From a virus, in the IMG/VR virus record IMGVR_UViG_3300042880_000420, positions 45,033 to 109,032 of that record: a DNA stretch of 64,000 nt. One strand, written 5' to 3'. A model generated the notes under the pieces. That model did not search any database. It was not told where the DNA came from and saw only the letters and a program-made list of their open reading frames with translations. Both the position numbers and the translations under genes were made by a program. Below are positions 33,586 to 56,781 of the stretch, piece after piece (the stretch's first letter is position 1; each line of letters starts with the position of its first letter).

Positions 33586-33591
33586 AATATT

Positions 33592-34218: not shown

Positions 34219-34229
34219 GTTTTTTTTTA

Positions 34230-35471: not shown

Positions 35472-35473
35472 AA

Positions 35474-35803: not shown

Positions 35804-35807
35804 AATT

Positions 35808-36053
35808 TTATGCTCCCATTAATAAAAAGTTTTGTTCAAAACCTGCTGCATTGCTTCCTGCTGAAATCCAAGCTGTACCATTCCATATAAATAATGCTAA
35901 TAATGTTGTATCAAAAACTATATATCCTTTATCAGATGTAGTTAAACTTAATGCATTTCTTTGTGTAGTAGTTAAATTATATATTCTACCTGCTTTGATT
36001 TCATTTGAATCAAGGTCAAGATTATGATAATATTTTTTGTCTATATTTGGCAT
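35808..36053 (-). CDS. Small fibre-adaptor-like protein (81 aa)
   Basis: The protein is 81 aa and contains TTTQRNALSLTTSDKGYIVF followed by LALFIWNGTAWISAG. This is a recurrent fibre element (RxAL...KGxxVFDTxxxxLxxWNGTAW) that forms a trimeric beta knob or attachment collar. It shares its boundary with the 202-aa gene (1-bp overlap). It is probably part of the head-fibre or tail-fibre complex. Confidence 0.7.
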   Translation of the reverse strand: MPNIDKKYYHNLDLDSNEIKAGRIYNLTTTQRNALSLTTSDKGYIVFDTTLLALFIWNGTAWISAGSNAAGFEQNFLLMGA

Positions 36054-36661
36054 TATGATAAATAAGCATAACCTGAAACAGGTTCTGAAAAAGTTATTTG
36101 TAAAATAGATGTAGTTGCATCTGTAACCACTCCAGAAATTTCATTACCAGATACATCAGTAATAAGAACATTAGGTACAAACCCAAGATTATGAGAAATA
36201 TTCCACACAGCAGAAGCAGTAGGAATATAGTACTGATACGAACCATTATTTATTGTTATATTAGGATTTATGTTAATTCTTGTACAGCATCCACCAACAT
36301 TAACATCTACAATATTTACATTTCCATCTCCTGTTGGATAAGAAAAACCTAAATCACAACATGGTATAATTGGACCACCAGAACATGTTTGACCAGCTGT
36401 TGTAAATCCACCAATATATGCTGCGGGATTTCCATTAAATGTAACAGGCAACCAAGACATATATGCTACACTAACTTGTGTAAGTGCACCTGCATCTTCG
36501 TTTTCAGCCCATTTTAAAATTTCATACCTAAGATTAGCCAAATCACAATCAATAGGAGATTTTGCACATTGAATTCCATACTGGTCATATTTATATTTTT
36601 CAACCATGCATTCTGCAAAATTTTCTTTGTAGACATCTTTATATAAAAGTACATTGCTCAT
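36053..36661 (-). CDS. Head/tail fibre protein (202 aa)
   Basis: The protein is 202 aa. The N-terminal part has Cys residues and a helical segment. The C-terminal domain (about residues 150-202) reads SAVWNISHNLGFVPNVLITD, then ISGVVTDATTSILQITF and ends SGYAYLS. This HNLG...P...DxxGNE...F...GxAYL pattern is a well-known C-terminal knob of phage fibres and head fibres. It overlaps the 81-aa fibre-element gene by 1 bp. It may be the crAss-type head fibre. Confidence 0.75.
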   Translation of the reverse strand: MSNVLLYKDVYKENFAECMVEKYKYDQYGIQCAKSPIDCDLANLRYEILKWAENEDAGALTQVSVAYMSWLPVTFNGNPAAYIGGFTTAGQTCSGGPIIPCCDLGFSYPTGDGNVNIVDVNVGGCCTRININPNITINNGSYQYYIPTASAVWNISHNLGFVPNVLITDVSGNEISGVVTDATTSILQITFSEPVSGYAYLS

Positions 36662-36663
36662 TA

Positions 36664-36804
36664 TTAGTTTGAATTATTTGTTTGTACAGCCAAGTTTTGT
36701 TCGTAAGAAGTAACACATGTGCTGCACACTTGTTTTCCATCTGATGCTGTTCTAACTTGACAAGAACAATTAATTGATGTACCGCAGTTTTGACATGTTC
36801 TCAT
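36664..36804 (-). CDS. Small zinc-ribbon-like protein (46 aa)
   Basis: A 46-aa frame starts at ATG 36802-36804. It carries CQNC (4-7), CSC (13-15) and CSTC (27-30), consistent with a small zinc-binding fold, and ends in a TAA adjacent to the next gene. It fills the gap between the 195-aa and 202-aa genes with 1-2 bp spacing, which supports it as real. I do not recognise a family. Confidence 0.65.
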   Translation of the reverse strand: MRTCQNCGTSINCSCQVRTASDGKQVCSTCVTSYEQNLAVQTNNSN

Positions 36805-36805
36805 A

Positions 36806-37393
36806 TTAATATTGGTTTTTGTGACAATCTTTACATCCTCCTATATATTTATCAAGTCGTTTTTTAGCATATGTTAATAATTCCATAGCTAAATTAGGAT
36901 CGTGACAATCTTCTGCTTTTACTTTTGCCGCATCAAAATAAGATTTAATTAACCTTAATTCGTTTAATCTTGCTCTTATTTCTACAGGGGGTTCACACGT
37001 TGCTAATTCAAGTTTACATAATTGTTGATTATAAACATTATAAGTTTGTGTCAATCTTAAATGATAATATTCAACATAAACTTGATCGTTAGGACTTACA
37101 GAATATTTAATTTTATAAATACCATCAGGTAATGCAGGTGCTTGTGGAGTACAATTACCAGAAATAATTCCTAAAGTACAAGCATTTAACACCAAATTAA
37201 ATGATGCCATACCGCTACTAGCATATGTTGTAACATCTATTTCAGCTGGTTCTGTAAATCCAGGAGAAGTAATTTGTAATGTAGCACATTTAACATCAAG
37301 TCCTTGTTGGTAAATACTTGCATCAACAACTCTAAAAATGCTTACATTATTAGTTTCGGGAATATCTAAATACAATTGATGTTGTGCTGGCAT
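36806..37393 (-). CDS. Virion-associated protein, beta N-terminus and helical Cys-containing C-terminus (195 aa)
   Basis: The protein is 195 aa. The first 125 residues look like a beta-sandwich. The C-terminal 60 residues are helical and contain CHDPN and a terminal CKDCH pair that may bind metal. A promoter-like motif and a terminator lie directly upstream, so this is the first gene of the fibre transcription unit. I do not know a named family. In this position it may anchor fibres to the capsid or tail. Confidence 0.65.
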   Translation of the reverse strand: MPAQHQLYLDIPETNNVSIFRVVDASIYQQGLDVKCATLQITSPGFTEPAEIDVTTYASSGMASFNLVLNACTLGIISGNCTPQAPALPDGIYKIKYSVSPNDQVYVEYYHLRLTQTYNVYNQQLCKLELATCEPPVEIRARLNELRLIKSYFDAAKVKAEDCHDPNLAMELLTYAKKRLDKYIGGCKDCHKNQY

Positions 37394-37405
37394 ATATTAC
37401 TAAGT

Positions 37406-37422
37406 TTACATTTAAAATATAC
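37406..37422 (-). promoter_or_regulatory. Candidate late promoter, copy 2
   Basis: The minus strand reads GTATATTTTAAATGTAA and matches the motifs at 7569-7585 and 45701-45717. It lies between the terminator at 37448-37483 and the first gene of the fibre unit, 13 bp before its ATG. Confidence 0.5.
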
Positions 37423-37447
37423 TGATTTTTTTTGTATTCTGCAAATA

Positions 37448-37483
37448 AAAAAAAAGAGAGGAATAAATCCTCTCTTTTTTATT
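37448..37483 (-). terminator. Strong intrinsic terminator after the 636-aa structural gene
   Basis: Perfect arms of AAAGAGAGGA type flank a short AT loop (about 37452-37480), with long T-runs on both strands. It lies 14 bp beyond the stop of the 636-aa gene. Confidence 0.85.
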
Positions 37484-37496
37484 TTTTAAGATATTA

Positions 37497-39407
37497 TTAA
37501 TAAACCTCAACAGGAACTACAGCAGCAGCAGCTGATATTGTAGCACCAGAAGCACCATTTGCAATATTTGCAGCAGAAGCGATATAGTCACCAATAAGAG
37601 ATGAACCACTATTAGTAATTGTTGAAAGCTTACCAGCACTAGTCGTTGTACTTGCAAAGAAAGAACTTAATCCAACTGCTTGTGGAACAGCAATTTCAAT
37701 TAAGTATTGATCATTATCAAATACACCAGTAGGATTATTCCAACGAGGTACATTGTGAAGTATGCAAAGCTTGTTGTACAAACCATTTCTGTTTGCAACG
37801 CTTAACATATTAAGTACACCAGGATTTGCTTCAATTTCTCTCATACGGAAAGTATCAATGTTGATACCATCACCAAATGCTTCTTGACGATATCTACCAG
37901 TAAGAATCAAATCACGAAGTACAGTTTCACCAACACCTTGAGCTTGTTGAGCAGCTTGTACTTCAGTAGCAATACCTGCAACACCAATGTTCGGAGAAGA
38001 ACCAATACAAGTAGTTAAACAAGGATCACCAGCATCATCCATAACAGAAGCAATAATCTTAAGAGGCTCAAGATCATAGTTATCAGTTACAGTGAAAGTG
38101 CTGTTACCAAACTTAGTTTCTACATAAGCAGCAGTTAATTCCAAGAAACAATCAGTAGTAAATGTAGCAGCATCAGCATCTGCAACATAAACATGAGCAG
38201 CACTAGTAGAAGCTAAAGTAGTAGCAAGAGCACCTATAGTAGCACCAGTAGCAGTACCTGTAGGAAGAGCTTGAGTATTAGTAGCAGGAATATAAGTAGC
38301 TTGACCTACATAAGTAGGTTGTACACCAGTGCCTACAACTGTATTAAAGAAAGTGGTAGTACCACCGTTAGCACCATACAAATCATTATATGATTTAAAT
38401 GTACCAGTAACTAATGATGGAGCAGTAGATTGAGTAGGCCATGAAATTGTACAAGTAGCAGAAACAGTAAGAACACCAGATAATGCAGGAGCTACAATTT
38501 GTGTAGGATATGTAATTGTATAAGATGTTGTAGAACTATAAGCAGATATATAAGAACCTACTGGAAAACCAGCACCAGTAACAGCAGAACCCAATGTAAC
38601 AGCACCTGATAATGTATTACCAGAAGTTACAGTATATGTAGATGTTGTTGCAGTACCGCCCGCACCTACTGTAGCAGTAGCAGTAGCAGTAACAGCAGTA
38701 ACAAAACTATTTATAGGCATGTTTGTACCAGTAATTCTTTGACCTACAGCAACACCAGAGGTATTGGTAGTATTAAAGGTAAATGTAGTACCTGTTGTAG
38801 TAGGAGAGCCTATACCAGAAATAATAACATTTCCTTTAAATTTGTAAGCTCTAGCTTGCACCATTTGATTAAAATAAGCAGAAGTATTAATTTGCTCTTT
38901 CCAATCAACAATAGTAGCAACAGGATCTTTTACAAAAGTAGGATTTGTAGTGTTGCAACAACCAGTGTAGCTATCAAGCACACGATAGATGTTGTGAGAC
39001 AAGAAACGTAAAGCAGGACTACCTTTAACATCTACACGAAGACGATAAGTAGTATCGCAAGTTAAACCACAACTTACAGGAATCTGAACAACCTGTTGTA
39101 CAGGAGCTTTAGCACCAACCCAAAAAATACGGCTAATATATTTTGGATTAATAAGCTTTGATTTTACAGATTCTTGATAACCACCATGGCTTCCAATAGT
39201 ATCAGAATATCCACTAGATTTGTAATAAGAACCTTGTACAATGTAGAAAGGTTGTGTAGTTGCAGCAGCAGCATAAGTAACTGCGGCATAACTACTATTA
39301 TACAATCCAATTTGACCAGCTGTTAATCCAGATGTTGCTGTAGCAGTGCTTGGTGAAAAAGGACTAGTCCCTAAAAGAGACATTTTAAAGGCGTGACTAA
39401 AATACAT
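37497..39407 (-). CDS. Abundant-type virion structural protein with beta insert (636 aa)
   Basis: The protein is 636 aa, rich in Ala, Thr, Ser and Gly. The N-terminal part includes a CGLTCDTTYRLRVDVKG segment and CC residues. An insert at about residues 195-335 carries two beta repeats with VGQRITGTNMPINSFVTAV and VTGAGFPVGSYISAY. The C-terminal part has YRQEAFGDGINIDTFRMREI and ends in a hydrophobic Ala-rich stretch. No enzyme motif is present. The gene ends at a strong terminator. Its place among capsid and connector genes and its composition suggest an abundant head or tail structural protein. I cannot say which. Confidence 0.75.
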   Translation of the reverse strand: MYFSHAFKMSLLGTSPFSPSTATATSGLTAGQIGLYNSSYAAVTYAAAATTQPFYIVQGSYYKSSGYSDTIGSHGGYQESVKSKLINPKYISRIFWVGAKAPVQQVVQIPVSCGLTCDTTYRLRVDVKGSPALRFLSHNIYRVLDSYTGCCNTTNPTFVKDPVATIVDWKEQINTSAYFNQMVQARAYKFKGNVIISGIGSPTTTGTTFTFNTTNTSGVAVGQRITGTNMPINSFVTAVTATATATVGAGGTATTSTYTVTSGNTLSGAVTLGSAVTGAGFPVGSYISAYSSTTSYTITYPTQIVAPALSGVLTVSATCTISWPTQSTAPSLVTGTFKSYNDLYGANGGTTTFFNTVVGTGVQPTYVGQATYIPATNTQALPTGTATGATIGALATTLASTSAAHVYVADADAATFTTDCFLELTAAYVETKFGNSTFTVTDNYDLEPLKIIASVMDDAGDPCLTTCIGSSPNIGVAGIATEVQAAQQAQGVGETVLRDLILTGRYRQEAFGDGINIDTFRMREIEANPGVLNMLSVANRNGLYNKLCILHNVPRWNNPTGVFDNDQYLIEIAVPQAVGLSSFFASTTTSAGKLSTITNSGSSLIGDYIASAANIANGASGATISAAAAVVPVEVY

Positions 39408-39485
39408 AGTTTTAAATTTTAATTGTTAATAAATAAATAAATGTTTATAAGAATAATATATGAAATTGATTTAAATTTTCCAAAT

Positions 39486-39947
39486 TTATTTTAGGAAAAT
39501 AAGTTTATATTTAATTGAGTTAATTGTACTCTTAATATTATCAAGGTCATTGATAATTTCAGAATATGGCATTTTAGATTGAAGACCGTTTACCATACTG
39601 TAGATTTCTCTAAGATAATTAATACCATCATTTACAGATTCAAGCATTCTAGGCGCAGAATCTGTACATTCTAATAGTTTTTCAGCTGCACCTTGAAATC
39701 CTTCAGCAATAGTATCAGCATGGTCAGGAAGCGCATCATATAGTTCATTAAGAGCTGTATGAGAAGCATGAGAACCAATACCTGTCACTTTAAGATGAAG
39801 TTTATGAAAACTAACAGCAGCGTTCATAAGTTCAGATACACATGCAGCTGCCATCTTTTCTAAAGAAGAACCGGTAGGTGCTCCAGAATATTCAGCAGTT
39901 TTACTAGGACTACTACTAAAAATGTTTGTTCTAGATATTTTTTGCAT
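39486..39947 (-). CDS. Dps/ferritin-like protein (153 aa)
   Basis: The protein is 153 aa. Residues 45-90 read FHKLHLKVTG, then HTALNELYDALPDHADTIAE, which follows the Dps pattern of HWxVxGxxFxxLHExFDxxYxxxxxHxDxxAER. His51, His63, Asp78 and Glu82 fall where ferroxidase ligands of Dps proteins are expected. The remainder is helical. Similar Dps-like proteins of unknown role (DUF5856-type) occur in other phages. It lies among head genes between the 636-aa and 235-aa proteins. It may bind DNA or metal in the capsid or protect it. Activity is not proven. Confidence 0.75.
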   Translation of the reverse strand: MQKISRTNIFSSSPSKTAEYSGAPTGSSLEKMAAACVSELMNAAVSFHKLHLKVTGIGSHASHTALNELYDALPDHADTIAEGFQGAAEKLLECTDSAPRMLESVNDGINYLREIYSMVNGLQSKMPYSEIINDLDNIKSTINSIKYKLIFLK

Positions 39948-39967
39948 TTTATTATGTTTTATATATA

Positions 39968-40675
39968 TTAATTATTTCGTTCAGCCGATTTTTCATTTCT
40001 TTGATATTGCGTCATTGCTTCTATATCACCAGCTAATATAGATGCAGCTTCATCACAAATAAGTTCTACAATATCATCTTTAAGTTCACTGGTAACATCT
40101 GTTGTAACAGTGGAACCTGTGTTTAAATCTATACATCCGACAAACTCTACATCTACCGGTTTTCTATAATAGTTTAATTTAGGATTTACTACGCTAAATT
40201 CACCATTAGTATAAATTCTAATTTTATTATTTACTAATGTACAAAAAGTTTCGGCCCAACTAAATGATGGTTTTGAAAACATATCTACTAATAAAAGATC
40301 TACATCAGCCTCTTCTGCAAGGTAGACAACAAAAGGTCTTGGATCTTTACAGCTATCTGTTACACCTTGAATAGAAACTCTTTTAAATTCTAAATAATTA
40401 GTAGGTAGGGAATCCACTTGAAAGTATGTAGGATCTACCAAGTTTCCAGAAAGATTAATGGTTGTCAATAATTTCTGAAGATCATCAATCCTTCTTTTTG
40501 AAGCTTCATCCCCTTCCTTGTAATTATTTGTACCATGGAGTTGTCTTCTAACCCATTCAATTTGTGCTTTATTAAAAGCTTCAGCAATTTGCCAACATTC
40601 TAAATTGTCATAATCAAAAGAAGAAAGTTTATTCAACCTCTCCTTAATTTTTATTTGTAATAGATTGTTGTTCAT
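39968..40675 (-). CDS. Head-tail connector/adaptor-like protein (235 aa)
   Basis: The protein is 235 aa. The N-terminal helices (CWQIAEAFNKAQIEWVRRQL) are followed by a beta domain and a C-terminal helix DIVELICDEAASILAGDIE. That layout is typical of head-completion or adaptor proteins and of similar proteins in crAss-like genomes. It lies between a small basic protein and the Dps-like gene. It is probably part of the portal-tail junction, inferred from fold pattern and position. Confidence 0.65.
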   Translation of the reverse strand: MNNNLLQIKIKERLNKLSSFDYDNLECWQIAEAFNKAQIEWVRRQLHGTNNYKEGDEASKRRIDDLQKLLTTINLSGNLVDPTYFQVDSLPTNYLEFKRVSIQGVTDSCKDPRPFVVYLAEEADVDLLLVDMFSKPSFSWAETFCTLVNNKIRIYTNGEFSVVNPKLNYYRKPVDVEFVGCIDLNTGSTVTTDVTSELKDDIVELICDEAASILAGDIEAMTQYQRNEKSAERNN

Positions 40676-40731
40676 TTTTTTATTATTTTGTCAGCTTATA
40701 GCCTTACTATTGAATAGAAAATGTCAGTTTA

Positions 40732-40896
40732 TTACTTGACTTTTTTTAATTTTGGATTAGCTTTTTTAGCAGCAGGAGATGCGTTTCTAGTTGCAGAAGC
40801 TAAAATAGCTCCAGCGGCTTCTTTACTTACTCCTTGTTTTTTTGCAATTTGAGATTGCACTGCTTTAAATCCAGGATGTGCTTTAGACTTTGCCAT
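40732..40896 (-). CDS. Small basic conserved phage protein (54 aa)
   Basis: A 54-aa frame starts at ATG 40894-40896 and ends TAA at 40732-40734. It reads HPGFKAVQSQIAKKQGVS, then AGAILASATRNASPAAKKAN and a Lys-rich tail. This pattern of HPGFK..Q..IA.K.GVS...AGAILA...R.ASP.AKK.NP is common in phages of gut and marine bacteria. It is highly basic and probably binds nucleic acid inside the head. It sits between the 337-aa and 235-aa genes. Confidence 0.8.
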   Translation of the reverse strand: MAKSKAHPGFKAVQSQIAKKQGVSKEAAGAILASATRNASPAAKKANPKLKKVK

Positions 40897-40918
40897 TTTG
40901 TATTTAATTTATTAGTTA

Positions 40919-41932
40919 TTAATTCCAGAATTTTTCTACTTCAGTTTGTACTTGAATTAAGATTTGTTCATTTAAAGGGTTTTTCAAGAATTCCACTGCA
41001 TCGGTTGAATTTCTACCCATCATAACTGAACTAGGAAGATGGTATACAAACCCATCAGCTTTCGTTGCTATAATTTTATAATAAATAGCATCCTTCACTA
41101 TAGCTTTGAGTTTTAATGTTTCCATATCTAATCTAGAAACATCTAAAAACATTTGTGCTGTTTTTCTTTTATCCTTATCTACAAGTTCTCCAGAAATGTA
41201 TTTATCCATATTATCATAGACAACATCATTAGGAGTTGACTTCTTATATTGTGCACTGTTAATATCTAACACTTTAGCAACATAAAGAAGCTTGTTTTGA
41301 TTTTTATCAAAGAGTTTTTGTAATTCAGCTGCTGCTTTATTACGCAACTTTTTAAGTTCTGTATTAGTAGATGCTGTTTCTTCCAGTCTATCTAAATAAA
41401 ACTTAGGTGGTTTATTCATTGTTTTTGCACCATCAAGAGATTTTGCAATCATACTAAATCCACCATTTTCAATAGCATAAAGTTTAATAAGATCATAAGG
41501 ATCTCTTTCTGGATCAAGAAATACAGGTTCATTACCACATCTTAATTTAATTTTGTCCCAAAAATCAGAATTATCAGGACGCAACAATTTGATTTTGTTC
41601 CAAAATTCAGAATCATTAGGATCTACTACATTAGAATTCAATTGTCTTTCTAATTGACTAACAATCATTCTAATTTGTTTAATTTTAGCCTCTTTTTCTT
41701 CTGTAGAATAATCAAGAAGTTCTGGAGCAAACTCATTAAGACCTGTTACATATCTTTTAATTCCATTAATTTCAAGACAAGCTATTTGTTCTTCATGAAA
41801 AACATTGTCAAAAAGAGCTAGTCCGTAATTTTGCAATCCCATGTTGTCAACCTTAGAATCAAAATAAGGTTTAATTGCAATTTTAGATTTTTTGTTTTGT
41901 GGATACTTTTCCACAATAGTCATTGTACTCAT
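40919..41932 (-). CDS. Conserved head-region protein with tandem motif (337 aa)
   Basis: The protein is 337 aa, mostly helical and charged. A short tandem duplication reads DSEFWNKIKLLRPD and then NSDFWDKIKLRCGN at about residues 107-135. No catalytic motif is apparent. A hairpin-forming leader (41957-42003) precedes its start. In crAss-like phages an unassigned conserved head-region gene lies in this position after the capsid gene. The function is unknown. It may be a capsid-associated or assembly protein. Confidence 0.65.
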   Translation of the reverse strand: MSTMTIVEKYPQNKKSKIAIKPYFDSKVDNMGLQNYGLALFDNVFHEEQIACLEINGIKRYVTGLNEFAPELLDYSTEEKEAKIKQIRMIVSQLERQLNSNVVDPNDSEFWNKIKLLRPDNSDFWDKIKLRCGNEPVFLDPERDPYDLIKLYAIENGGFSMIAKSLDGAKTMNKPPKFYLDRLEETASTNTELKKLRNKAAAELQKLFDKNQNKLLYVAKVLDINSAQYKKSTPNDVVYDNMDKYISGELVDKDKRKTAQMFLDVSRLDMETLKLKAIVKDAIYYKIIATKADGFVYHLPSSVMMGRNSTDAVEFLKNPLNEQILIQVQTEVEKFWN

Positions 41933-41956
41933 GTTTGGTTTTGGTTTGGTGAGTTG

Positions 41957-42003
41957 TTCCCAACGAAGGCTGCCAGACTTCTAAAATAGGCGTATGTTGG
42001 GAA
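41957..42003 (-). ncRNA. Structured 5' leader hairpin of the 337-aa gene
   Basis: TTCCCAAC (41957-41964) and GTTGGGAA (41996-42003) are perfect complements closing 31 nt. The interior contains a further GAAG/CTTC pair. It is located 24 bp upstream of the 337-aa start on the minus strand. The GC content of the element stands out from its surroundings. It may be a regulatory leader, a processing site or a hairpin promoter. Confidence 0.5.
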
Positions 42004-42092
42004 GTTCGAAGATAAATCTTTAAACTGTTAAATTATTGCAAATTAAATTGTAAATGTTTCATTGTAAAATTTTATTTGCAGTTAATAGAAAA

Positions 42093-42629
42093 TTAAGAAA
42101 CTCTAGTTACTGTAAAACTAGCATTAGCTAATACCACAGAAGCAGTTGCGTTTGATACTTGTTGTGCAAACATAACTGTTAAAGTACCAGGATTTGCTAC
42201 AACTACAGTTCCTTCAATAACAATTAAAGTATGTGCAGCAGCAGCTCCACCAATTGTAGTACCTGGTGTAGCAGTTGTAGAAGATGAAACAGCAACAGCA
42301 GATGCGATATAATATAAAGCTGTAGCATTAATACTTGTCCAAGTACTTGTTCCTCCAATAGCAACCTTTGAACCAGGAGTTGCATTAACTGTTACAGGTA
42401 ATACAGCTCTAAAACTATACACACCACCTGCTTCTACATTTTTAGAAAGCTCAGTTACATTTGCAAATACAGTGTTACTAGTTACACTAAATGCAGATGT
42501 TGTAGACATTGTATCTGGTATATACTTAAGAAGATAATTTAAATGACCAAATTTAGCCAATGCCATGTCTTCTTCTTTTTTCAAAAACGGATCGTCTGAT
42601 TTAGGAAAAAATTTATTTAAAAGTATCAT
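42093..42629 (-). CDS. Capsid decoration/auxiliary protein (178 aa)
   Basis: The protein is 178 aa. The N-terminal 35 residues form a basic and helical anchor (an alternative start at ALAKFGHL, nt 42566, is possible). The rest is a Ser/Thr/Ala/Val-rich beta domain resembling capsid decoration proteins or head-fibre subunits (NTVFANVTELSKNVEAGGVY...). It directly follows the major capsid gene after a terminator hairpin. crAss-like virions carry auxiliary capsid proteins and head fibres, which fits. Which of these it is cannot be told from sequence alone. Confidence 0.75.
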   Translation of the reverse strand: MILLNKFFPKSDDPFLKKEEDMALAKFGHLNYLLKYIPDTMSTTSAFSVTSNTVFANVTELSKNVEAGGVYSFRAVLPVTVNATPGSKVAIGGTSTWTSINATALYYIASAVAVSSSTTATPGTTIGGAAAAHTLIVIEGTVVVANPGTLTVMFAQQVSNATASVVLANASFTVTRVS

Positions 42630-42674
42630 TTTATTTTTTATTTATTATGTTATTAAAAATTGTTTATGGTTATT

Positions 42675-42706
42675 AGAAAGATGTTAGCTAAAACTAACAT
42701 CTTTCT
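42675..42706 (-). terminator. Intrinsic terminator downstream of the major capsid gene
   Basis: There are 13-bp perfect arms, AGAAAGATGTTAG (42675-42687) and its complement (42694-42706), with a 6-nt loop. The T-run is weak, so partial read-through is possible. It lies 55 bp past the capsid stop. Confidence 0.7.
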
Positions 42707-42760
42707 GTTTAAACCTATCATTTAATTTAGATTTTTATTAAAATCCAAATATATTTATAA

Positions 42761-44404
42761 TTAGAACGATGATCCAGTAATTGGATTACGCATCACAATT
42801 TTCAACACTTTTGTAGGATCTTTCACCCAAATTGCTGGCATTGTCTGAGACATCATTACACGGTATCCATTAAAGTTACCAGAACTTTGGAATCCTTGTG
42901 TACGACCCATATAATCCATGGTACCATTTTGATAGAACCATTTCAATTGATTATCCCAGCTTAATTTCAACAAGAAGATGTTGTCATTAGTGTTATCTGT
43001 AATATCAAAGATGATAAAGTTATAAGATGATAATGGGAAACCGTCAATTAATGGATTCTCAATATCATTTGTGTGTACATTATCAAAAGCAGGATTCAAC
43101 ACAAACTTAACATTTGCTAAGAAAGGAATTACATACTGAGTGTAAGCAAATCCAAAGTTAAGATCCATACCTTGACCGGTAATAGCACCAACCTCACGTG
43201 CATTAATAACCATACCAGATGCAACAGCTTCTTTCTTAATAGCTTCATTAATCATCTTCATACCACCCATACCAGTTTGTACTACAAGACTGCGTTGAGG
43301 ATCAGGTCCTTTAAATTCAACCTTACCATTAAAGAAGTTAAATATTTCAGCACGGAACAAATCAAGTGTAAAGCTAGATTTATTGTAAATGCGTTTATAA
43401 GAATTATCAAGTTGTTTCCAAAGACCTACAGACAAACGAATATCATCTGGACCATCTTGTTTCAAACGACCACCTTGACCCCACATAAGGTAAGTTTCAA
43501 TGTCATTAGCAATCTTAGAAAGATGTGCAGCTTCCAAAGTTGTTAAGAATGTACGAGAAAGTTGACCATTTTGGTATGCTTTTTTAACATAATCAGGTCC
43601 CATTTTCTCAGCCATTTTTTCAAGAGAAGTGATTGATGGATCCATTGACTTGTCAAAGTTGCGCCACAATTCAATTACTGGAACTGTACCATCAGCTTTC
43701 ATACCACCTTTCATCATCATGTCAGCTTTAGAGCTAATAGAATAATGAACGTGAGCTTCAGCACCTCCTACAAAGTTGTAGAATTCACGGAAACCACTGC
43801 GAACTTCTCCAATATCAGAGAATCTTTCTCCATATTCTCCACGTGCAGAACCTTTACGAAACACTTTAGATCCAATTTTAAAAGGATTAGCAGTGTTGCA
43901 AATAATAGCTTTAGTGCTATCATTGTTTACAATTTGTACAGTGTAAACAAAAGAATCACCAGCTGGAACAATATCATCAGCAGTGATATAAAGTTCTACA
44001 CCATTATATTTGTCATAAGTGATAATATCACCGTGACCAAATACACGTCTGTTAAGACGAATTTTAAATGTAGTACCATCAACACCATAAGCAGTGCTTG
44101 CGCTACCACCATTGGTAATGTTTACTTCTTCAGTAAGGTAAGGCAAATCTTGAGCTACAGGAACTTGCCACTTATACTCACCGCGAGCATTATCTACCAT
44201 AATTACATTTTTACCACCAAATGAAGACATTTGATAGAGGGGCATTTCTACTTTTTGTGTCATTGCCCAAAGGTCTACTGGACCAAGGTCCATAGGTTCT
44301 GCTGATTTCAGCATGTTAGTCATATGGTATGAATCTACATGAGAACTAGTTTTGTAGTTATTATCACGCAGGAATATACCATTGTTTAAAACTGGTGTTG
44401 CCAT
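42761..44404 (-). CDS. Major capsid protein (547 aa)
   Basis: The protein is 547 aa and HK97-fold-like by pattern. An N-terminal arm is followed by YQMSSFGGKNVIMVDNARGE (about residues 57-76), which matches the FGGKNVIEVD-type segment of crAss-like capsid proteins. A long helical spine region and a C-terminal domain with GQGMDLNFGF and DYMGRTQGFQSSG follow. Codon usage here is visibly richer in G and C than in neighbours, as usual for the most highly expressed phage gene. It follows the acidic scaffold-like gene and precedes the decoration protein. Confidence 0.9.
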   Translation of the reverse strand: MATPVLNNGIFLRDNNYKTSSHVDSYHMTNMLKSAEPMDLGPVDLWAMTQKVEMPLYQMSSFGGKNVIMVDNARGEYKWQVPVAQDLPYLTEEVNITNGGSASTAYGVDGTTFKIRLNRRVFGHGDIITYDKYNGVELYITADDIVPAGDSFVYTVQIVNNDSTKAIICNTANPFKIGSKVFRKGSARGEYGERFSDIGEVRSGFREFYNFVGGAEAHVHYSISSKADMMMKGGMKADGTVPVIELWRNFDKSMDPSITSLEKMAEKMGPDYVKKAYQNGQLSRTFLTTLEAAHLSKIANDIETYLMWGQGGRLKQDGPDDIRLSVGLWKQLDNSYKRIYNKSSFTLDLFRAEIFNFFNGKVEFKGPDPQRSLVVQTGMGGMKMINEAIKKEAVASGMVINAREVGAITGQGMDLNFGFAYTQYVIPFLANVKFVLNPAFDNVHTNDIENPLIDGFPLSSYNFIIFDITDNTNDNIFLLKLSWDNQLKWFYQNGTMDYMGRTQGFQSSGNFNGYRVMMSQTMPAIWVKDPTKVLKIVMRNPITGSSF

Positions 44405-44449: not shown

Positions 44450-45682
44450 TTATCGTTTAAAAATATTTGTTTGTCTAGGAATTTTTCTAACCTGTTCACT
44501 TTGCGATGTATTCACAGAAGATGTAGCTTTGTTTCTTGATTGTTCAGTTTTAAGTTGTCGTACAGTTTGTTCTACCGCTTGGTTCTTACCTTGCTTCATC
44601 AATGAAGATCTATAATCATCAGGATTAGAAAGTAACCACAAAGCTTCTGCTATAAGATCGTATCTTGGTTCCACATATTGGTATTTTTCCAATAAGTGTC
44701 CTAAAAGATTTGTAGGATTACCATTTATAGAAGGATATTGAGGTTGTGTTAATCCGTTATATAAGAATGACTGCACCTTTTTATCAAGTTTTACGCCCCC
44801 CAATTCACCTTGTCTTAATGTTTCAAAAACATTTTGTACATAAGCATCAGCGGCTTGTTCTTGCTGTTTTCTCATTATTTCTTGCTCTGCAAGTTTAGAC
44901 TGAATCATCTCTTCTTGCATAGCATCCAACTTAGGTTTAAATTGCTTTGCTTTCTTTTCCAGTTGACCAAGATCTTTCCAGTTGTTTACTTCTTCTTCAA
45001 TTTCATCATTGTCACCAAAGTTGGTTGCTTGAAGATAAGAGCGTACAATTGATTCTTGATCACCGTCTGATTCAGGATTTAATTCTCTCACCTGCTCTAC
45101 TTTAGCTAATGCTTGAAATAATCCTTTAAGATCTTGTCCTCCATCTGCTACATATTTAGCAGCATACTGAAGTTCTTCCGGAAGACTTTCAAAAAACTCA
45201 GCAGGTGTGTGAGAAGCTATTTCATTTTTTATATTAGAAATATTAGCTTGCCAAAGCTCATCCAAATCTTTTTCATTCAAAGAACTAATATAGTCGTCTA
45301 AAGTTTGTTTCTCTTCATCATAGTCGTCAAAAGCAAACATTTCCTTAGACTCAATTCTTTTTTTAAGAAAGCCTACAAGAGATGATTTTTCTGTTTTAGG
45401 TCTTCCTCTCTGTACTGTTTCTTCTTCTGAAGAACTATCATTTACAATTTCTTCATCTACAATACTTTCAATTACATCTGTTTGGCTAGGTTGTTCTGGT
45501 TCGTCCAAAAAAGAAACATCTGTTTGTGAACTAGCAAAAATATTAGGTTTTTCCTCTGTTTCTTTTGTAGAAGAAGCTGAGGTCATGACACTATCCGCTC
45601 CAGGTGCACCAATCCAGCTGTCTATATCAAGATCTACTTGGTTAACAGATGTTATATCTGTTGGGTTGTTGTTGGTTTCCAT
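44450..45682 (-). CDS. Acidic coiled-coil head scaffold-like protein (410 aa)
   Basis: The protein is 410 aa. The first 110 residues are acidic and disordered (repeated EE/DD, SQTD). A central coiled coil follows (about residues 215-290: KKAKQFKPKLDAMQEEMIQS, KLAEQEIMRKQQEQAAD). The C-terminus is basic and ends in TNIFKR. Its gene lies directly before the major capsid gene, the standard place of a scaffolding protein. Size, charge and coiled coil fit that role. A copy of the 17-bp late-promoter motif lies 19 bp upstream. Confidence 0.75.
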   Translation of the reverse strand: METNNNPTDITSVNQVDLDIDSWIGAPGADSVMTSASSTKETEEKPNIFASSQTDVSFLDEPEQPSQTDVIESIVDEEIVNDSSSEEETVQRGRPKTEKSSLVGFLKKRIESKEMFAFDDYDEEKQTLDDYISSLNEKDLDELWQANISNIKNEIASHTPAEFFESLPEELQYAAKYVADGGQDLKGLFQALAKVEQVRELNPESDGDQESIVRSYLQATNFGDNDEIEEEVNNWKDLGQLEKKAKQFKPKLDAMQEEMIQSKLAEQEIMRKQQEQAADAYVQNVFETLRQGELGGVKLDKKVQSFLYNGLTQPQYPSINGNPTNLLGHLLEKYQYVEPRYDLIAEALWLLSNPDDYRSSLMKQGKNQAVEQTVRQLKTEQSRNKATSSVNTSQSEQVRKIPRQTNIFKR

Positions 45683-45862: not shown

Positions 45863-48607
45863 TTATTTTTTATTTTTATCTGCTTTAATTTCAAATTGTG
45901 TTCTATTTGTTCGAGCTATTTCTAATTGTTTATTAGCAATATCCTGTTGAGTTTGAATTTTTTCTCTCTCAATATCTAGCTTTTGTTCATTAAATCTTGT
46001 TTTATTTACTTCTTGTTCACGTTTAAGATTGCTAGTATCTGTATAATTTTGTTGTTGTTGAATTTTAGCAAGAGCATCTTGATAATCAGACATAGCATTT
46101 TGGTTAATGTCTTGTGTTGCACCATATCCAGCAGCTCTAATTTCAGCTTCAACAATTCTTGCTTGTCTATCCTTGTCTTTTTCTTCAGCAATAAATTGTT
46201 GTTTCATCATCTCTTGTTGTTGAAGAGCTTCTTGTTGTTTTTGCTGCATTTCTTGCTCATGTTGCTGCTGTTGTTGTCTGATGCTATTAGCTTTCTCTTC
46301 AGTTTTTTTCAAAACATTTGTAAGTTCTGCAATAGATTCAGATTTAATAACGTTTCCAAGATCATAAATACTAGCACCTGTAGTGTTATTATTTAATGCT
46401 AAAGATTTAAGCTGTTCCATTACAGCTCTAGAATTAGTTTTAGTAGTGCAAAATATGTTAAGATCACGCATCAAAAGATCTGTACCATTAATTTGAAAAT
46501 TAACCTTTTCATCCGCAGATGTAACATATTGAAGACGCACCGAGGGTTTTGTAGAATTATAATATTGAGCTAGTTCTGTTCTCATCTGATGTACTCTAGG
46601 CATCAAATTGTCACTATGCTGTACAAAATACACTTCTGTTTGATTGTAAGAAGCATTTAAAGCTTGTTCTACACCTGTTGCAGTTTGTTGTGCAATTTGT
46701 TGTCCCATTCGCTGAGGATTAACACCAATTACCTCAAATGCTTGAGTTTTAAAATAGTTAGCTAAATTAATCCTAGACATTAAACGCTGTGTTTGTTCTA
46801 AATTTAACACCTGATAGTGTTGAAAATTAAGAGCATTTTCAGTGTTAGTTATAGATGTATCTAAAGGTAACATCTGGAAGTTTTTCATAGCAACATATGC
46901 ATTTGCTAAATTGTTCTTTCCCCAATCTTCTCCCATTGAATGTCTGGGTAGGGCGTTCTGATCAAACATAATAACTGTACCTAACTCATCTATTAATATA
47001 TCAGCTATTTGATTGTTAACTATATTATAACCTATTTGAAAAGGTTTCATAAGATCCACCATAGATACAGAACGTGTATTTCTATCTGAAAATACAGCTC
47101 CCTCTACAGGAGGTTTGCAACCATAAAGAGTTGTATCTCCTTTAAATTGGAATGGAATTTTACCCGGTTTACCACCATTTAGTCCAAGATATATTGGATT
47201 AAAACCACCTGGATTATTCATACCCCAAAAAGAAGGTCTATTTGGTCCTATTTTTATACCACCCCAAACTTCATTAATCCAAATCCAATCTATATGTTCT
47301 CCAAATACTAAATTGTCTTTTGTTTTTTCTTTATATAAGCTAGTATCATACAGAGGTTTGTCAGTAATTTTGTAGTTTTCAGCTACAATATCTTGTATCA
47401 TTTCACCTAATTCTGTAATCTTTGTAAGGTGTCCCACTCTACGTTGTGACTTCCAATATACAGTAGTGCAACGCAACAAATGTGCATTACCCCAATCAAA
47501 AAGATCTTCTGACTCATTTAATATAGATTGAATAACATCACCACTCCATTTTGTATTGTCATATGTACTCATAAACTGTCTATATGCAAGACCTGGCATC
47601 TGAGTATTCCAATCATGAGATCTTGTTGGATCATAATAAGATCCATCATTTTGCATACCTGGAAGTGCATATCCAGCAGATCTTACAGGATAAATAACCT
47701 CTAAAGCTTTAAGTTGCTCTTCATTCATCATCCACCCAAACTTATCTATAACATCTGCTACAGTAAGTAAATCAAGCATTCCTATCCAATGAGCTTCAGA
47801 TATGTAACGAGCAGAAGCAGACTTATGATAGAAAACTTGTACAGGATTCCAAAGCTCAATTTCATAATCATCATCCATCATTCTAAAATGCCAAAATTCT
47901 CTATCTGTAATTAACATGTCACGAAATGCTCTTTCTTCCAATTCATCCATGTGAAATCTTTCTACATCTACTTGATGTTGGTGCGTAGCCCAACTTTCAT
48001 ATAGATTTCTGTAGTCTTTTTTAAAAAAGCTTTCAATTTCTGGTAATGATTTTAATTTATCAGGAGACATTTCTTGTTGAAATTCTTCAGATTGAGGGTC
48101 CATTCCCATATTAATAAGCTTGTTCATCATTTTAGCTTGTGCTTTTTGCATAAGCACTTCTTCAATCATGTTCTTTTTTTCTTCTAACATTTCATTATAT
48201 GAAAGCTCATCCACCGTTCTAAACATAATTTTAGAAGCTCTCTTACTAAATTCAGAACATAAGACATTAATTACATTAGGTATAATAGGGTAGAATTTAA
48301 GTTCTAATGCTGTCTTATCTTCTTTAGTTAGCATATCAATAAGCTCACCATTAGGGTTATCTTCTTCAACTATATAATCTGTTTTATCGATAATACCCTT
48401 TGCTAATTTATAATTTTTAAGTAAACGTACAGCATTACGTCTAAGTTGACGCATACCCTGCCACTCTAACCAGTCTAAATTCCATGCTCTCCACTCATCA
48501 TCCTTTTCAGCTTCTGGTAGAAATTGTACAGGTTGCATAAGGCTCCCCATTTTATTGTACTCAACTTTCTTGCCTGCCTTGAGGTCAAGTGCATTATATA
48601 TTTGCAT
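45863..48607 (-). CDS. Portal protein (914 aa)
   Basis: The protein is 914 aa. The N-terminal half carries the portal-like body (RQLRRNAVRLLKNYKLAKGI, then SEFSKRASKIMFRTVDEL). The mid region has GGIKIGPNRPSFWGMNNPGG and RMGQQIAQQTATGVEQA. The last 200 residues form a Gln/Lys-rich coiled coil (HEQEMQQKQQEALQQQEMM) ending basic. It is long, like the crAss-like portal, and lies between the terminase and the scaffold/capsid genes. It forms the dodecameric DNA channel at the capsid vertex. The call is from pattern and order. Confidence 0.85.
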   Translation of the reverse strand: MQIYNALDLKAGKKVEYNKMGSLMQPVQFLPEAEKDDEWRAWNLDWLEWQGMRQLRRNAVRLLKNYKLAKGIIDKTDYIVEEDNPNGELIDMLTKEDKTALELKFYPIIPNVINVLCSEFSKRASKIMFRTVDELSYNEMLEEKKNMIEEVLMQKAQAKMMNKLINMGMDPQSEEFQQEMSPDKLKSLPEIESFFKKDYRNLYESWATHQHQVDVERFHMDELEERAFRDMLITDREFWHFRMMDDDYEIELWNPVQVFYHKSASARYISEAHWIGMLDLLTVADVIDKFGWMMNEEQLKALEVIYPVRSAGYALPGMQNDGSYYDPTRSHDWNTQMPGLAYRQFMSTYDNTKWSGDVIQSILNESEDLFDWGNAHLLRCTTVYWKSQRRVGHLTKITELGEMIQDIVAENYKITDKPLYDTSLYKEKTKDNLVFGEHIDWIWINEVWGGIKIGPNRPSFWGMNNPGGFNPIYLGLNGGKPGKIPFQFKGDTTLYGCKPPVEGAVFSDRNTRSVSMVDLMKPFQIGYNIVNNQIADILIDELGTVIMFDQNALPRHSMGEDWGKNNLANAYVAMKNFQMLPLDTSITNTENALNFQHYQVLNLEQTQRLMSRINLANYFKTQAFEVIGVNPQRMGQQIAQQTATGVEQALNASYNQTEVYFVQHSDNLMPRVHQMRTELAQYYNSTKPSVRLQYVTSADEKVNFQINGTDLLMRDLNIFCTTKTNSRAVMEQLKSLALNNNTTGASIYDLGNVIKSESIAELTNVLKKTEEKANSIRQQQQQHEQEMQQKQQEALQQQEMMKQQFIAEEKDKDRQARIVEAEIRAAGYGATQDINQNAMSDYQDALAKIQQQQNYTDTSNLKREQEVNKTRFNEQKLDIEREKIQTQQDIANKQLEIARTNRTQFEIKADKNKK

Positions 48608-48887: not shown

Positions 48888-51113
48888 CTATCTTATGTTT
48901 TTAAAAGCATTTCTAGGGGGAGTATTTAAAGCATTTTTATTTAAACTTCCTGAGTTTATACCCATATGTCTAAATGGAGTCCTTACTGATAATTTACTTA
49001 ATTTTTGTGTATTTTCCAATTTATCATTTGCTATTTCTACTCTTGTAGCTTTACCCCTATTGTTTTGCTGTATTTGAGCAAATGCTACAAGGGAACAAAA
49101 TGAAACCAAACGGTCTACGTTTAAACCCGGTTGGTATTGTTTCATTTCTTCTAATAACATTATGTCGGGTATTCTTTCTACACCATAATGTATTTTTGTT
49201 ATTTCACCATCTTTATTTGTGTGAACATCTAATTCTTCTTGTAAGAATTGTATGCCATAACTTATAAGATGGGTTTTAAAAAGTGTTCCTGTATTTTTCC
49301 AGCCGTATGTAGCAAATACATTAGCATTACTGGACAATTCTTTAAGAAAAGGTATTTGATCTTTAGGAACCAAATATTTTTGTTTCCTTTTACTAATCAT
49401 ATACTGTATAAAAAGACTAACATTATTTTCAACTAATGTCCACGCATTATACCATTCGATGAGCATTTCTAGACGTTCATGTGTTTTTTGCAAATCATCA
49501 AATCTTCCACACCATGAAGCAACAATACCATCTCGCTCAAAATGTGAATTTACTTTACCATTTCCCTCATCCTTAATTACTTCAGTTGGATTTTTATAGA
49601 TAAATATGCTACATAATGAATCTGATGTGGTGGTCCTACCTTCCCCGACTGGATCTATAGAAGCATAATATGTTCCCCAAGGAACATTAGGAATTGGTCT
49701 TTCGTACACGCATATAACTCCAGATTTGTCTTCCATAGTTTTATCTATAGGAAATTTTTTAATAGGTTGTCTATTAGATTTTTTGGCTACAATTTTATTT
49801 TCCTCATTTATACTTAATTCGACATATTCTATAGGATAGTCTCCATCTTCTATACGTTTTATTTGATGTGAAATAAGATGGGGTGGAAATACAGATTCTT
49901 TTCTTGTAGCAAATGCCTCTTCAATATTAGTGGGTTTTTGAGAAATACGTAACTGGTATTGTTCAGGAGATAAGTCTTTTTTCCATTGTTTACGTTCTTC
50001 ATAAATAGCTTCAAGTGCATCATTAACTAAAGAGTTACCAGCTTTATCTATATAAGGAGGCATTGACCATTGTTCAGGAATAAATAATCCAGTTTCCCCT
50101 ATTGTACCATTGTTATCTATTAAATTGGATGTTATAGCAAACATACCATATTTATGAGGATAGAGTATCATTTCTTTAAGAGGTTGACATTGATCTAAAT
50201 CACCCACTGAACCAGCAGCTATAAATGTACCTGTTGTCACCATACCAGATTGCATTGCAGGACGCATAAACTCATAAGTGTCCATCATCTTGGGAGCAAT
50301 TCCAGCTTCTTCATGAAAGAAGTACGATACGGGTCCTCCCACGCCATTAGTTGGGTCTTTTTCAAATGATGTACCTGTAATAATAGACTTGTTACCCTTG
50401 TAAGTGTCTCTACCACCTGTTCTCACTTTAATACGTTGTTGCCAAGAAAACACCTTATCAGGTTCAGAAGGTCTATACCAAGCAGTGTGTTCATTAAGAA
50501 AGTTACGATATTCATTAAGCATCCTCCAAGAACCTTTCTCTGATATATAGTCTTTAAGACTAGCTCCTATTTTATTTACAGAACCTTCTTCAAACCAATA
50601 TTGATTAATCAATTTTCCCATATGAAAATATGAAGATGCTATCTGACGTTTCTTTAATATTGGGACATGTTTATAACTTAATTCTGCTAAAATCTCATAC
50701 AATGCCATATGATATTGAGCATCTCTCACTTTAGCAAAATCAAATCTTTTTTCTTCCTTATCATAAATAGGAAGAAAGTTAAGCCACATATAATAATCAC
50801 GTGTTAAATACCATGTTAATCCATCCTCTTTATAAATAACACCATTGCGACATTTTGCTTTTTCTTCATCCCAATAATTCATAAAGTCTTTTGACTTTAT
50901 TGGAGCATTACAGTAATATCCATCTTTTTGAAACTTTCTAGCTTGAGAATTAAATTCTATAGAAATATTTACGGTAAAATTATAACCTTCATTTGGACCA
51001 GCGTCTTTAAAAACAGAACGTACAAAATCTCTAATTTCTATTCTGTCTTTAAATTCTGTTGTTGTCCAAACACCATTTTCGTAAGTGGGTATTATGTAAT
51101 TAGTTTGATACAT
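48888..51113 (-). CDS. terL: Terminase large subunit (741 aa)
   Basis: The protein is 741 aa. The ATPase half is recognisable by a Walker-B-like VSYFFHEEAG (262-271). The Walker A region near LKKRQIASSYFHMGK (153-167) is degenerate in appearance. The C-terminal RNase-H-like nuclease has the acidic triad candidates D487 (YYASIDPVGEG), E562 (TLVENN) and D650 (ERIPDIMLL). It translocates and cuts DNA during packaging at the portal. It ends with TAG followed closely by the next gene start, so TAG is a stop here. Its first codons overlap the small upstream frame by 14 bp. Confidence 0.93.
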   Translation of the reverse strand: MYQTNYIIPTYENGVWTTTEFKDRIEIRDFVRSVFKDAGPNEGYNFTVNISIEFNSQARKFQKDGYYCNAPIKSKDFMNYWDEEKAKCRNGVIYKEDGLTWYLTRDYYMWLNFLPIYDKEEKRFDFAKVRDAQYHMALYEILAELSYKHVPILKKRQIASSYFHMGKLINQYWFEEGSVNKIGASLKDYISEKGSWRMLNEYRNFLNEHTAWYRPSEPDKVFSWQQRIKVRTGGRDTYKGNKSIITGTSFEKDPTNGVGGPVSYFFHEEAGIAPKMMDTYEFMRPAMQSGMVTTGTFIAAGSVGDLDQCQPLKEMILYPHKYGMFAITSNLIDNNGTIGETGLFIPEQWSMPPYIDKAGNSLVNDALEAIYEERKQWKKDLSPEQYQLRISQKPTNIEEAFATRKESVFPPHLISHQIKRIEDGDYPIEYVELSINEENKIVAKKSNRQPIKKFPIDKTMEDKSGVICVYERPIPNVPWGTYYASIDPVGEGRTTTSDSLCSIFIYKNPTEVIKDEGNGKVNSHFERDGIVASWCGRFDDLQKTHERLEMLIEWYNAWTLVENNVSLFIQYMISKRKQKYLVPKDQIPFLKELSSNANVFATYGWKNTGTLFKTHLISYGIQFLQEELDVHTNKDGEITKIHYGVERIPDIMLLEEMKQYQPGLNVDRLVSFCSLVAFAQIQQNNRGKATRVEIANDKLENTQKLSKLSVRTPFRHMGINSGSLNKNALNTPPRNAFKNIR

Positions 51114-54854: not shown

Positions 54855-55349
54855 TTAACTTAATAATTTAGAAATCTTTGTATTAGCAAATTGTACAAAT
54901 ATACTATCTGATTTAAGCTTTCCTTTCCAAGAAATATATGGATTTAAAATCCAATATTCAGAAATTTCTGTTTCGTGTATTCTGATATGAGCATAAACCC
55001 CCCATTCAAATAACTTCTTAAATATCCCCCCCACCTTATTCTTACCAATATTAAATTCCTCAGCTAACACCCTAATAGAAGTTTCATCAGAAAATGGTTT
55101 AAGACTATTTGTATTAAAACAAGCTTTCTCTATCATCTTATAAACAATACCAAGTTCTTCATTACTAAGAACTGTAGATAGCACTCTAATAGCATCATTG
55201 TTTACTAATGAAAAATTATTATAATTTAATAAAGACTTATCCTTAGGTATATTACTATATCCCTTTTTTACAAAAGATATTTCTCCGGTTTGTGCGTTAA
55301 CTTTAGCAGCCAACTCATCATCTTTCAATTTAACATTTATATTATACAT
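54855..55349 (-). CDS. RepL-like winged-helix replication/regulatory protein (164 aa)
   Basis: With the ATG at 55347-55349 the protein is 164 aa. An ATG six codons upstream is also possible, but a TATCTTTG box lies just before the downstream ATG. The pattern is an N-terminal strand pair with NAQTGEISFVKKGY, a helical core (EELGIVYKMIEKACF) and a winged-helix motif (SIRVLAEEFNIGKNKVGGIF, about residues 108-128) with a wing. This resembles RepL-type plasmid initiators, which occur in some crAss-like phages, and also wHTH regulators. It lies between the two candidate control regions of the hub. Initiator versus repressor cannot be decided by reading. Confidence 0.6.
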   Translation of the reverse strand: MYNINVKLKDDELAAKVNAQTGEISFVKKGYSNIPKDKSLLNYNNFSLVNNDAIRVLSTVLSNEELGIVYKMIEKACFNTNSLKPFSDETSIRVLAEEFNIGKNKVGGIFKKLFEWGVYAHIRIHETEISEYWILNPYISWKGKLKSDSIFVQFANTKISKLLS

Positions 55350-55411
55350 ACAACAAAGATATAACAAAAACTATTATAATTATTTTTTATAAAATTTAAT
55401 TAATTGTAAAT

Positions 55412-55893: not shown

Positions 55894-55904
55894 TAGTCCA
55901 ACAT

Positions 55905-55941
55905 AAAACACACACAGCAGAAATGTTGTGTGTGTTTTTTT
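55905..55941 (+). terminator. Intrinsic terminator of the OB-like gene
   Basis: AAACACACACA pairs with TGTGTGTGTTT around a GCAGAAATGT loop and is followed by a run of T. It lies 12 bp past the stop. Confidence 0.85.
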
Positions 55942-55952
55942 TATTTGTTTAT

Positions 55953-55976
55953 ATATTCCTACGAATATTCCTACGA
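55953..55976. repeat. 12-bp tandem repeat (iteron-like)
   Basis: ATATTCCTACGA occurs twice in direct succession and is followed by ATAT and an AT-rich tract. Short direct repeats next to an AT-rich stretch and an IHF site are typical of plasmid origins. With only two copies, chance is not excluded. Confidence 0.55.
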
Positions 55977-56008
55977 ATATTTTTAATAAAACATTACAAC
56001 TTATTGAT

Positions 56009-56021
56009 TATCAATTAGTTA
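56009..56021 (+). promoter_or_regulatory. IHF-consensus site 2
   Basis: TATCAATTAGTTA matches WATCAANNNNTTR. It is in the second copy of the 22-bp repeat (56003-56024) and ends 8 bp before parS. Confidence 0.45.
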
Positions 56022-56028
56022 TGATGTA

Positions 56029-56044
56029 TGTTCCACGTGAAACA
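56029..56044. promoter_or_regulatory. parS: parS site (ParB-binding)
   Basis: TGTTCCACGTGAAACA is identical to a canonical bacterial chromosomal parS, the sequence on which ParB nucleates. A 16-mer match by chance in a 64-kb window is very unlikely. No ParA or ParB gene is seen in the window, so host ParB or a phage ParB encoded elsewhere would be needed. It sits in the non-coding hub between the early and late arms. Confidence 0.85.
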
Positions 56045-56061
56045 TTTGTTTTTTTGTTAGT

Positions 56062-56099
56062 TGTGTGAGTGTGTTTATAAGTGGTAAACAACTCACACA
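56062..56099. other. Strong stem-loop next to parS
   Basis: GTGTGAGT pairs with ACTCACAC, and after a bulged G an inner TGTTTA pairs with TAAACA. The loop is TAAGTGG. The stem is about 15 bp in total. It lies 18 bp from parS. It may be a replication-origin hairpin or a transcription terminator. No long T-run follows on the plus strand. Confidence 0.65.
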
Positions 56100-56103
56100 C
56101 TGT

Positions 56104-56560
56104 TTCTTAATATAAACGAATACTTAGATTCCACAAAAAACTTGCGGCATTAAATAGCTATAGACTGAAATGTTCCTTTACACAGTCTTTAAATAAATGT
56201 ATAAATACAATTGCTGCATGGTAGCTCAAAGCAAGTTGTTAATTCAACCAACATTCTTTTTAGTATTATTTTTCTTATATGGGATAAAGCATAGAAAAAA
56301 TATACACCTTTTACAATAAGCACTACAAAGGAAGGCATTCCTAGTAGTAAAAGAAAACAATAGTATATCACTGCATACTGTTGTTTCTGCTTTTATTAAA
56401 AATTAGTCATAAAAAAAGACTAATACTACTATGTAAAAAAAATTATTAAATTCCTGAAAGTATTTCCAAATGTAGTGATTAGGAAAAAGGATAGGGGCTT
56501 GTGGTTAAACTGTAGACTACGAGCAAGAGCAGTGGTGTTGATATCTTCCTTATAGATATT
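56104..56560. other. Non-coding hub sequence
   Basis: No convincing gene in about 460 bp. It contains AGACTG/CAGTCT (near 56166-56190) and ATTAGTC/GACTAAT (56402-56408 and 56418-56424) hairpins. The only frame of note is a 60-codon minus-strand one rich in hydrophobic residues (56189-56371), which I do not accept. The stretch may be a long untranslated leader or part of an origin. Confidence 0.5.
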
Positions 56561-56710
56561 ATTATAACAAATAATAGAGAAGTACGAATTACAACCTCAA
56601 TTGTAATTAAAAGAAAAAGTAAGTGTGAGAAGCTTATAAATATCTTTTGTATTATATATAGATGTACACTATATGTAAGATTTTATCTATTATTTGTTAT
56701 AATTTCTGTC
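56561..56710 (+). ncRNA. Candidate ribozyme-terminated structured RNA
   Basis: An 18-bp perfect inverted repeat (ATTATAACAAATAATAGA at 56561-56578, complement at 56686-56703) encloses 107 nt with an internal AATTACAA/TTGTAATT hairpin (56587-56608). The right arm runs directly into the 5' strand of the hammerhead ribozyme, whose cleavage after 56710 would give this RNA a defined 3' end. No reading frame is present. Function unknown. Confidence 0.5.
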
Positions 56711-56762
56711 CATAAACTGTTGTTTATGCTGATGATGACCTAATTGAGGGTCGAAACAGAAA
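56703..56762 (+). ncRNA. Type III hammerhead ribozyme
   Basis: All parts are present in order. Stem III: TTTCTGT (56703-56709) pairs with ACAGAAA (56756-56762). The cleavage triplet is GUC, cut after C56710. Stem I: CATAAAC/GTTTATG, loop TGTT. Core: CTGATGA (56729-56735). Stem II: GACC/GGTC with an 8-nt loop. Core: GAAA (56753-56756). One deviation is an extra U (56736) between the core and stem II. Cleavage would leave the mRNA of the next gene starting at 56711, 71 nt before its ATG. Confidence 0.82.
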
Positions 56763-56781
56763 CCTTTTTAAATTTAAAACA

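Follow-up and report, generated by a model that had tools for sequence, protein, structure and literature searches.

The locus described here raises the question of why a virus would carry, in a non-coding part of its genome, a sequence of the type used as a centromere by host chromosomes, and which protein would read it. In the window, a stretch of 64,000 nucleotides corresponding to bases 45033-109032 of a 109,032-base IMG/VR record, a check of the sequence places the 16-mer TGTTCCACGTGAAACA at 56029-56044 (+ strand), with 0 mismatches and outside coding sequence. It fits the parS consensus TGTTYCACGTGRAACA and has the parS form rather than the NBS form, so that the first-pass annotation was correct in calling it a canonical parS. 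Base composition (29% G+C) predicts 2.7e-5 exact 16-mers per genome (about 3e-5), and 2.6e-4 matches per genome to the 14 specified bases of the pattern TGTTNCACGTGNAACA. This pattern has a single match in the whole record, where the reversed-pattern control has 0.

The site is located between a strong terminator and the next plausible gene, outside plausible open reading frames and 0.1 kb from the terminator (Table 1). No confirmed relative was found for the small gene that ends upstream of this terminator. The global minimum of the cumulative GC skew is at genome position 100,483 (window 55,451), which is 0.6 kb from parS, as opposed to the 5-13 kb that separate the hub from sites of the other position classes described below, the phage origin being only putative. 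The roughly 740 bases at 56045-56781 contain no plausible gene and are a possible origin or RNA, and a scan of the hub against Rfam gave no match close to any family's gathering score. Two inverted repeats are present in this region, one of 21 nt (56561-56581 / 56683-56703, 95%) and a second at 56261-56281 / 56408-56428. Left of the window, record bases 31630-44193 form one open frame of about 4188 codons.

Table 1. Features of the window around the candidate parS and in the structural gene block (window coordinates).
Feature	Coordinates	Strand	Remarks
Non-coding hub holding parS	55894..56781	none	Adjoins divergence point of leftward and rightward genes
parS, 16-bp palindrome TGTTCCACGTGAAACA	56029..56044	none	Predicted host ParB nucleation site; exact match and family-wide enrichment
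Intrinsic terminator of small + strand gene upstream of parS	55905..55938	+	15-pair stem, -20.7 kcal/mol, T-run
First rightward gene, 94 aa	55609..55893	+	Without PHROG or Pfam family
First leftward gene, 170 aa, across divergence point	54855..55367	-	Weak phrog_9501
Gene downstream of non-coding hub, 111 aa	56782..57117	+	Without Pfam family
Terminase large subunit (terL)	48888..51113	-	phrog_6681, 3.7e-68; anchor for relatives
Portal protein	45863..48607	-	phrog_6547, 4.2e-86
Gene between portal and major capsid protein	44450..45682	-	Acidic variable linker carries class C site in relatives
Major capsid protein	42761..44404	-	phrog_11589; class E site after gene in L175, L177, L227

Relatives were represented by 171 terminase-anchored IMG/VR loci (1.98 Mb, from three terminase-based scans), in records that may all be fragments. 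In these loci the site is both above chance and maintained, where 24 perfect TGTTNCACGTGNAACA are found against an average of 0.005 over 400 palindromes made by permuting its letters, and where the core GTTYCACGTGRAAC has 38 occurrences, window included, compared to 0.12 for shuffled palindromes; TGTTNCACGTGNAACA read backwards occurs 0 times in 50 whole records. Together with the expectation per genome, these counts bear out the earlier judgement that a chance origin is very unlikely. Y and R occupy the free positions in 21/21 distinct perfect family sites and in 137/144 other parS in IMG/VR, the latter figure suggesting that most of those other sites are real. While many relatives carry the site, none was seen within the stretch covered in L306, in L311 or in the closely related sister lineage L134/L181 (about 83-84% TerL identity), and a search for conspecific contigs by the flank CAATTAGTTATGATGTA returned no more than chance matches to unrelated sequence. 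The sample numbers in IMG/VR suggest a freshwater origin of the phage clade.

Several look-alikes were rejected and left uncounted. The sequence CGTTCCACGAGGAACA, found after the capsid gene in L179, L188, L190, L203, L242, L243 and others, fits the generalised word and was dropped as a coincidence because it lies within the conserved peptide AFHEEQ; the class B sites described below could partly be of this same peptide-driven kind. Two further candidates, TGTTCCATGGGGAACA inside terL and TTTTGCACGTGCAATA in the L134/L135/L137/L181 lineage, have two mismatches each.

The first-pass annotation looked to conservation of the site at the same position in related genomes, which is not what was observed, as the position turns over between several classes. 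In class A, to which the window belongs along with L129-L132, L144/L146, L184, L204 and L221, the site is intergenic and lies 4.2-8.3 kb before terL. The closest relatives with a hub site, L129-L131, have two identical 16-mers each, 125-154 bp apart and with diverged flanks, and L132 fits a deletion of the interval between two such copies. In class B, the site is within a small gene directly before terL, in the peptide W-A-A-V/I/F-P-R-E-T-Y, and in class C it is within the portal-capsid gene, in an acidic linker too variable for the flanks to align; the corresponding gene of the window phage is without a site. Class E sites are intergenic and directly follow the capsid gene. The 32 near-distinct loci that can be followed from the hub to beyond the capsid gene include 23 with a site, made up of 12 in class C (including position-6 variants), 5 in class A, 4 in class B (including position-1 variants), 1 in class E and 1 elsewhere, where the class B and C counts may be partly protein-driven because these sites lie in shared peptides. 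The other 9 well-covered loci have no site, which counts against the parS reading. Two position classes never occur in the same locus among these 32, and a wider set of loci with B and C both visible includes one double. In the terminase (TerL) tree, the classes have a scattered distribution.

Where the site lies in a gene, it is the DNA word rather than the peptide that is constrained. The class C site encodes V[S/P]R[E/G]T in 23 distinct, otherwise hypervariable linkers, with valine as GTT in 23/23, arginine as CGT in 23/23 and glutamate or glycine as GAA/GGA in 23/23. In the conserved stretch GRPKTEKSGLV of the same genes, arginine is CGT in 11/23 and valine is GTT in 8/23 (Fisher p 3e-5 for arginine and 1e-6 for valine, values that are optimistic because the rows are related), a contrast that is internal to the same gene and the same rows. 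These codons are fixed while conserved codons nearby drift, and therefore the DNA word is kept. Variation in class C is confined to parS position 6, which is free in one half-site, and to the outermost base. In class B, PRET is always encoded by CCA CGT GAA ACA, whereas in homologs that have another peptide the arginine codon is mostly AGA, and parS position 1 varies in this class. The deviations tolerated in the family, with natural variants GTTTCCCGTGAAAC at position 6 and ATTCCACGTGAAAC at position 1, thus fall at the two positions that distinguish parS from the Noc site NBS (PMC7383237). Combinations of the type C.A are common at the free positions, and therefore no paired RNA stem is kept. 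Based on this sequence evidence, the 16-mer probably functions as a parS, of the type that belongs to host chromosomal ParABS, selected in a clade without partition proteins, where a strict ParB might not tolerate the free position 6 in one half-site of class C.

As to which protein reads the site, searches of the whole record gave no match to ParB_N (PF02195), ParA-type AAA_31 (PF13614) or tyrosine integrase (PF00589), so that the earlier observation that no ParB is encoded in the window holds, and can be extended to both ParA and ParB in the rest of the genome. The record therefore does not encode the ParA and ParB that would accompany the site in a ParABS system, nor, in the PF02195 and PF13614 searches, the partition genes that would mark a phage-plasmid. 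ParA is likewise absent among 18 large relatives. A phage-encoded ParB was rejected as the reader, with ParB_N missing from the phage's own record and ParB_N-only proteins present in 3/31 records (L314, L315 and L316; 249-311 aa), which have no other Pfam domain and no recognised HTH. Tyrosine integrase-family genes are found in 4/19 large relatives (records of L183, L262, L294 and L302), and for this reason some clade members may integrate or resolve multimers. The ParB_N-like proteins and the integrases of these relatives both weigh against the main reading. Since the genome itself has no ParA, ParB_N or integrase match, and because the site combines the exact chromosomal consensus with the tolerance of the ParB family, host ParB is very probably the reader and the economical choice; a phage protein with the same specificity is a possible alternative.

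A site kept by selection at changing places suggests viruses that use the host DNA-segregation machinery. In the proposed mechanism, host ParB-CTP would load as a clamp at the phage parS and would then spread over neighbouring phage DNA, which in turn would link ParA and/or SMC of the host to the phage genome. In an infection that is prolonged and unintegrated, phage DNA would travel with the host origin after its replication and be segregated along with it, so that daughter cells would inherit it. This segregation and inheritance of unintegrated DNA is the favoured and most likely consequence, although one held tentatively, and it fits best because the site has 1-2 copies per genome and is retained despite turnover, and because genes for partition or integration were not found in this phage. 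More tentatively still, the clade may be described as one of large freshwater phages with one host-type centromere per genome and no partition genes, in which the centromere has re-evolved at new places, including the codons of structural genes, so that host ParABS/SMC would carry the unintegrated genome through division.

Binding by host ParB could also serve other ends. It is unlikely, though the strongest of the rivals, that phage DNA, as it multiplies, titrates ParB/SMC away from the origin of the host, or that SMC is loaded onto this DNA to compact and disentangle it in lytic growth. Such a role would explain a single site without ParA or integrase in a genome that encodes its own DnaB-type helicase and primase-like proteins, as one site would be multiplied by many phage copies and ParB at parS recruits SMC as well as ParA (PMC7333895); titration, however, would favour many sites per genome, where one or two are seen. 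Less likely again is a host-borrowed regulator, where host ParB spreading from parS would repress or time nearby phage promoters. The window site adjoins the divergence point of leftward and rightward genes, and plasmid ParB proteins are known to silence DNA near parS (PMC7333895), but relatives carry their sites within late genes or past the capsid gene, at distances of 5-13 kb from the hub and with no promoter in common.

A slightly lower likelihood is given to a phage-encoded DNA-binding protein, either a regulator or a packaging factor, that reads GTTYCNCGTGRAAC and makes host ParB irrelevant. While the freedom of position 6 in one class C half-site and the position of class B, C and E sites amid genes for packaging and the head would be compatible with such a protein, the full word, the Y/R ambiguity and the tolerated positions all match ParB/Noc sites, and the record has no ParB-type protein, the ParB_N-like proteins of the 3/31 records having no further Pfam domain. 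By far the least probable explanation is chance, a terminator hairpin or the codon usage of conserved peptides. The look-alike in AFHEEQ illustrates how a peptide can give rise to such a word, but intergenic copies and fixed wobble bases already contradict codon usage and chance, the latter being opposed also by the very low number of sites expected per genome. As for a terminator, the + strand folds worse than shuffles (z +1.4) and the - strand forms a weak hairpin without a following T-run.

The phage was initially called crAss-like. This applies in a distant, wide sense only, as TerL is about 26% identical to Crassvirales, and Leptolyngbya phage Lbo-JY46, a cyanophage, has the nearest portal (30%) and capsid (29%), followed by Cellulophaga phi17:2/phi4:1 and an epsilon crAss-like phage. 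Scans over the full length of 24 annotated phages, which comprised Crassvirales of several families, phages of Flavobacterium and Cellulophaga, Lbo-JY46 and csAssE-Sib, gave no site at 0 or 1 mismatch. The cultured relatives Lbo-JY46, phi17:2, phi4:1 and csAssE-Sib are thus without it, which counts against the main reading. Because the sampled Crassvirales are without it, the site cannot explain the carriage of gut crAss phages, and the Bacteroidetes (Bacteroidota) host implied in the first-pass annotation is not established because, among cultured relatives, a Leptolyngbya phage is the nearest. What is supported of the first-pass annotation is the parS identity, by enrichment, turnover and codon constraint, and not a conserved position or the carriage of gut crAss phages; partition with the host chromosome would be one of several possible consequences. 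A terminase search of GTDB genomes gave one contig (L313), in a Campylobacteraceae MAG, which is likely a binning stray; its terminase is 65% identical to that of L184.

Outside this clade, 41/44 other IMG/VR viral contigs with TGTTNCACGTGNAACA (sampled from L002-L121) are without ParB_N, and for this reason orphan parS may be widespread and part of a broader viral strategy, while some of the parS-bearing contigs may be host DNA. Contig L033, 6.3 kb long, has five perfect parS sites. These results bear on the persistence of large integrase-less phages in host populations, where a conserved host centromere is a mechanism that can be tested directly, requires no gene of the phage and is therefore invisible to gene-based annotation. 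The site, which moves and can be embedded in codons, also offers a natural experiment on the specificity of ParB.

Among known systems, the chromosomal ParABS-parS system (ParB/Spo0J) shares the 16-bp site, Y/R at the free positions included, and its parS is usually near oriC (PMC7333895), as the site in the window is near the GC-skew minimum; unlike the chromosomal parS, the phage site is found on a phage without parA/parB, in 1-2 copies and at a position that turns over. Noc, which mediates nucleoid occlusion, belongs to the same protein family, and its NBS differs from parS at positions 1 and 6 only (PMC7383237). Phage-plasmids such as P1, N15 and actinophages share extrachromosomal partition as the proposed benefit, but encode their own ParABS, with ParA/ParB and cognate centromeres (PMC11652158), where none was found in the window phage. 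Carjivirus communis (crAssphage), which has been described as a phage-plasmid (PMC11652158), is similar in its distantly related structural genes and unintegrated persistence. Like other sampled Crassvirales, Carjivirus LMMB has no parS at 0-1 mismatches. The nearest functional precedent for a host-read phage parS is the virulent Bacillus phage phi29, which is said to carry host parS read by host ParB for DNA segregation, and which, in work by Meijer et al. from 2005, reportedly uses host Spo0J/parS to enter the spore. In contrast to phi29, the clade described here is one of unrelated large freshwater phages without a link to sporulation, in which the site is present clade-wide at shifting positions, also inside genes.
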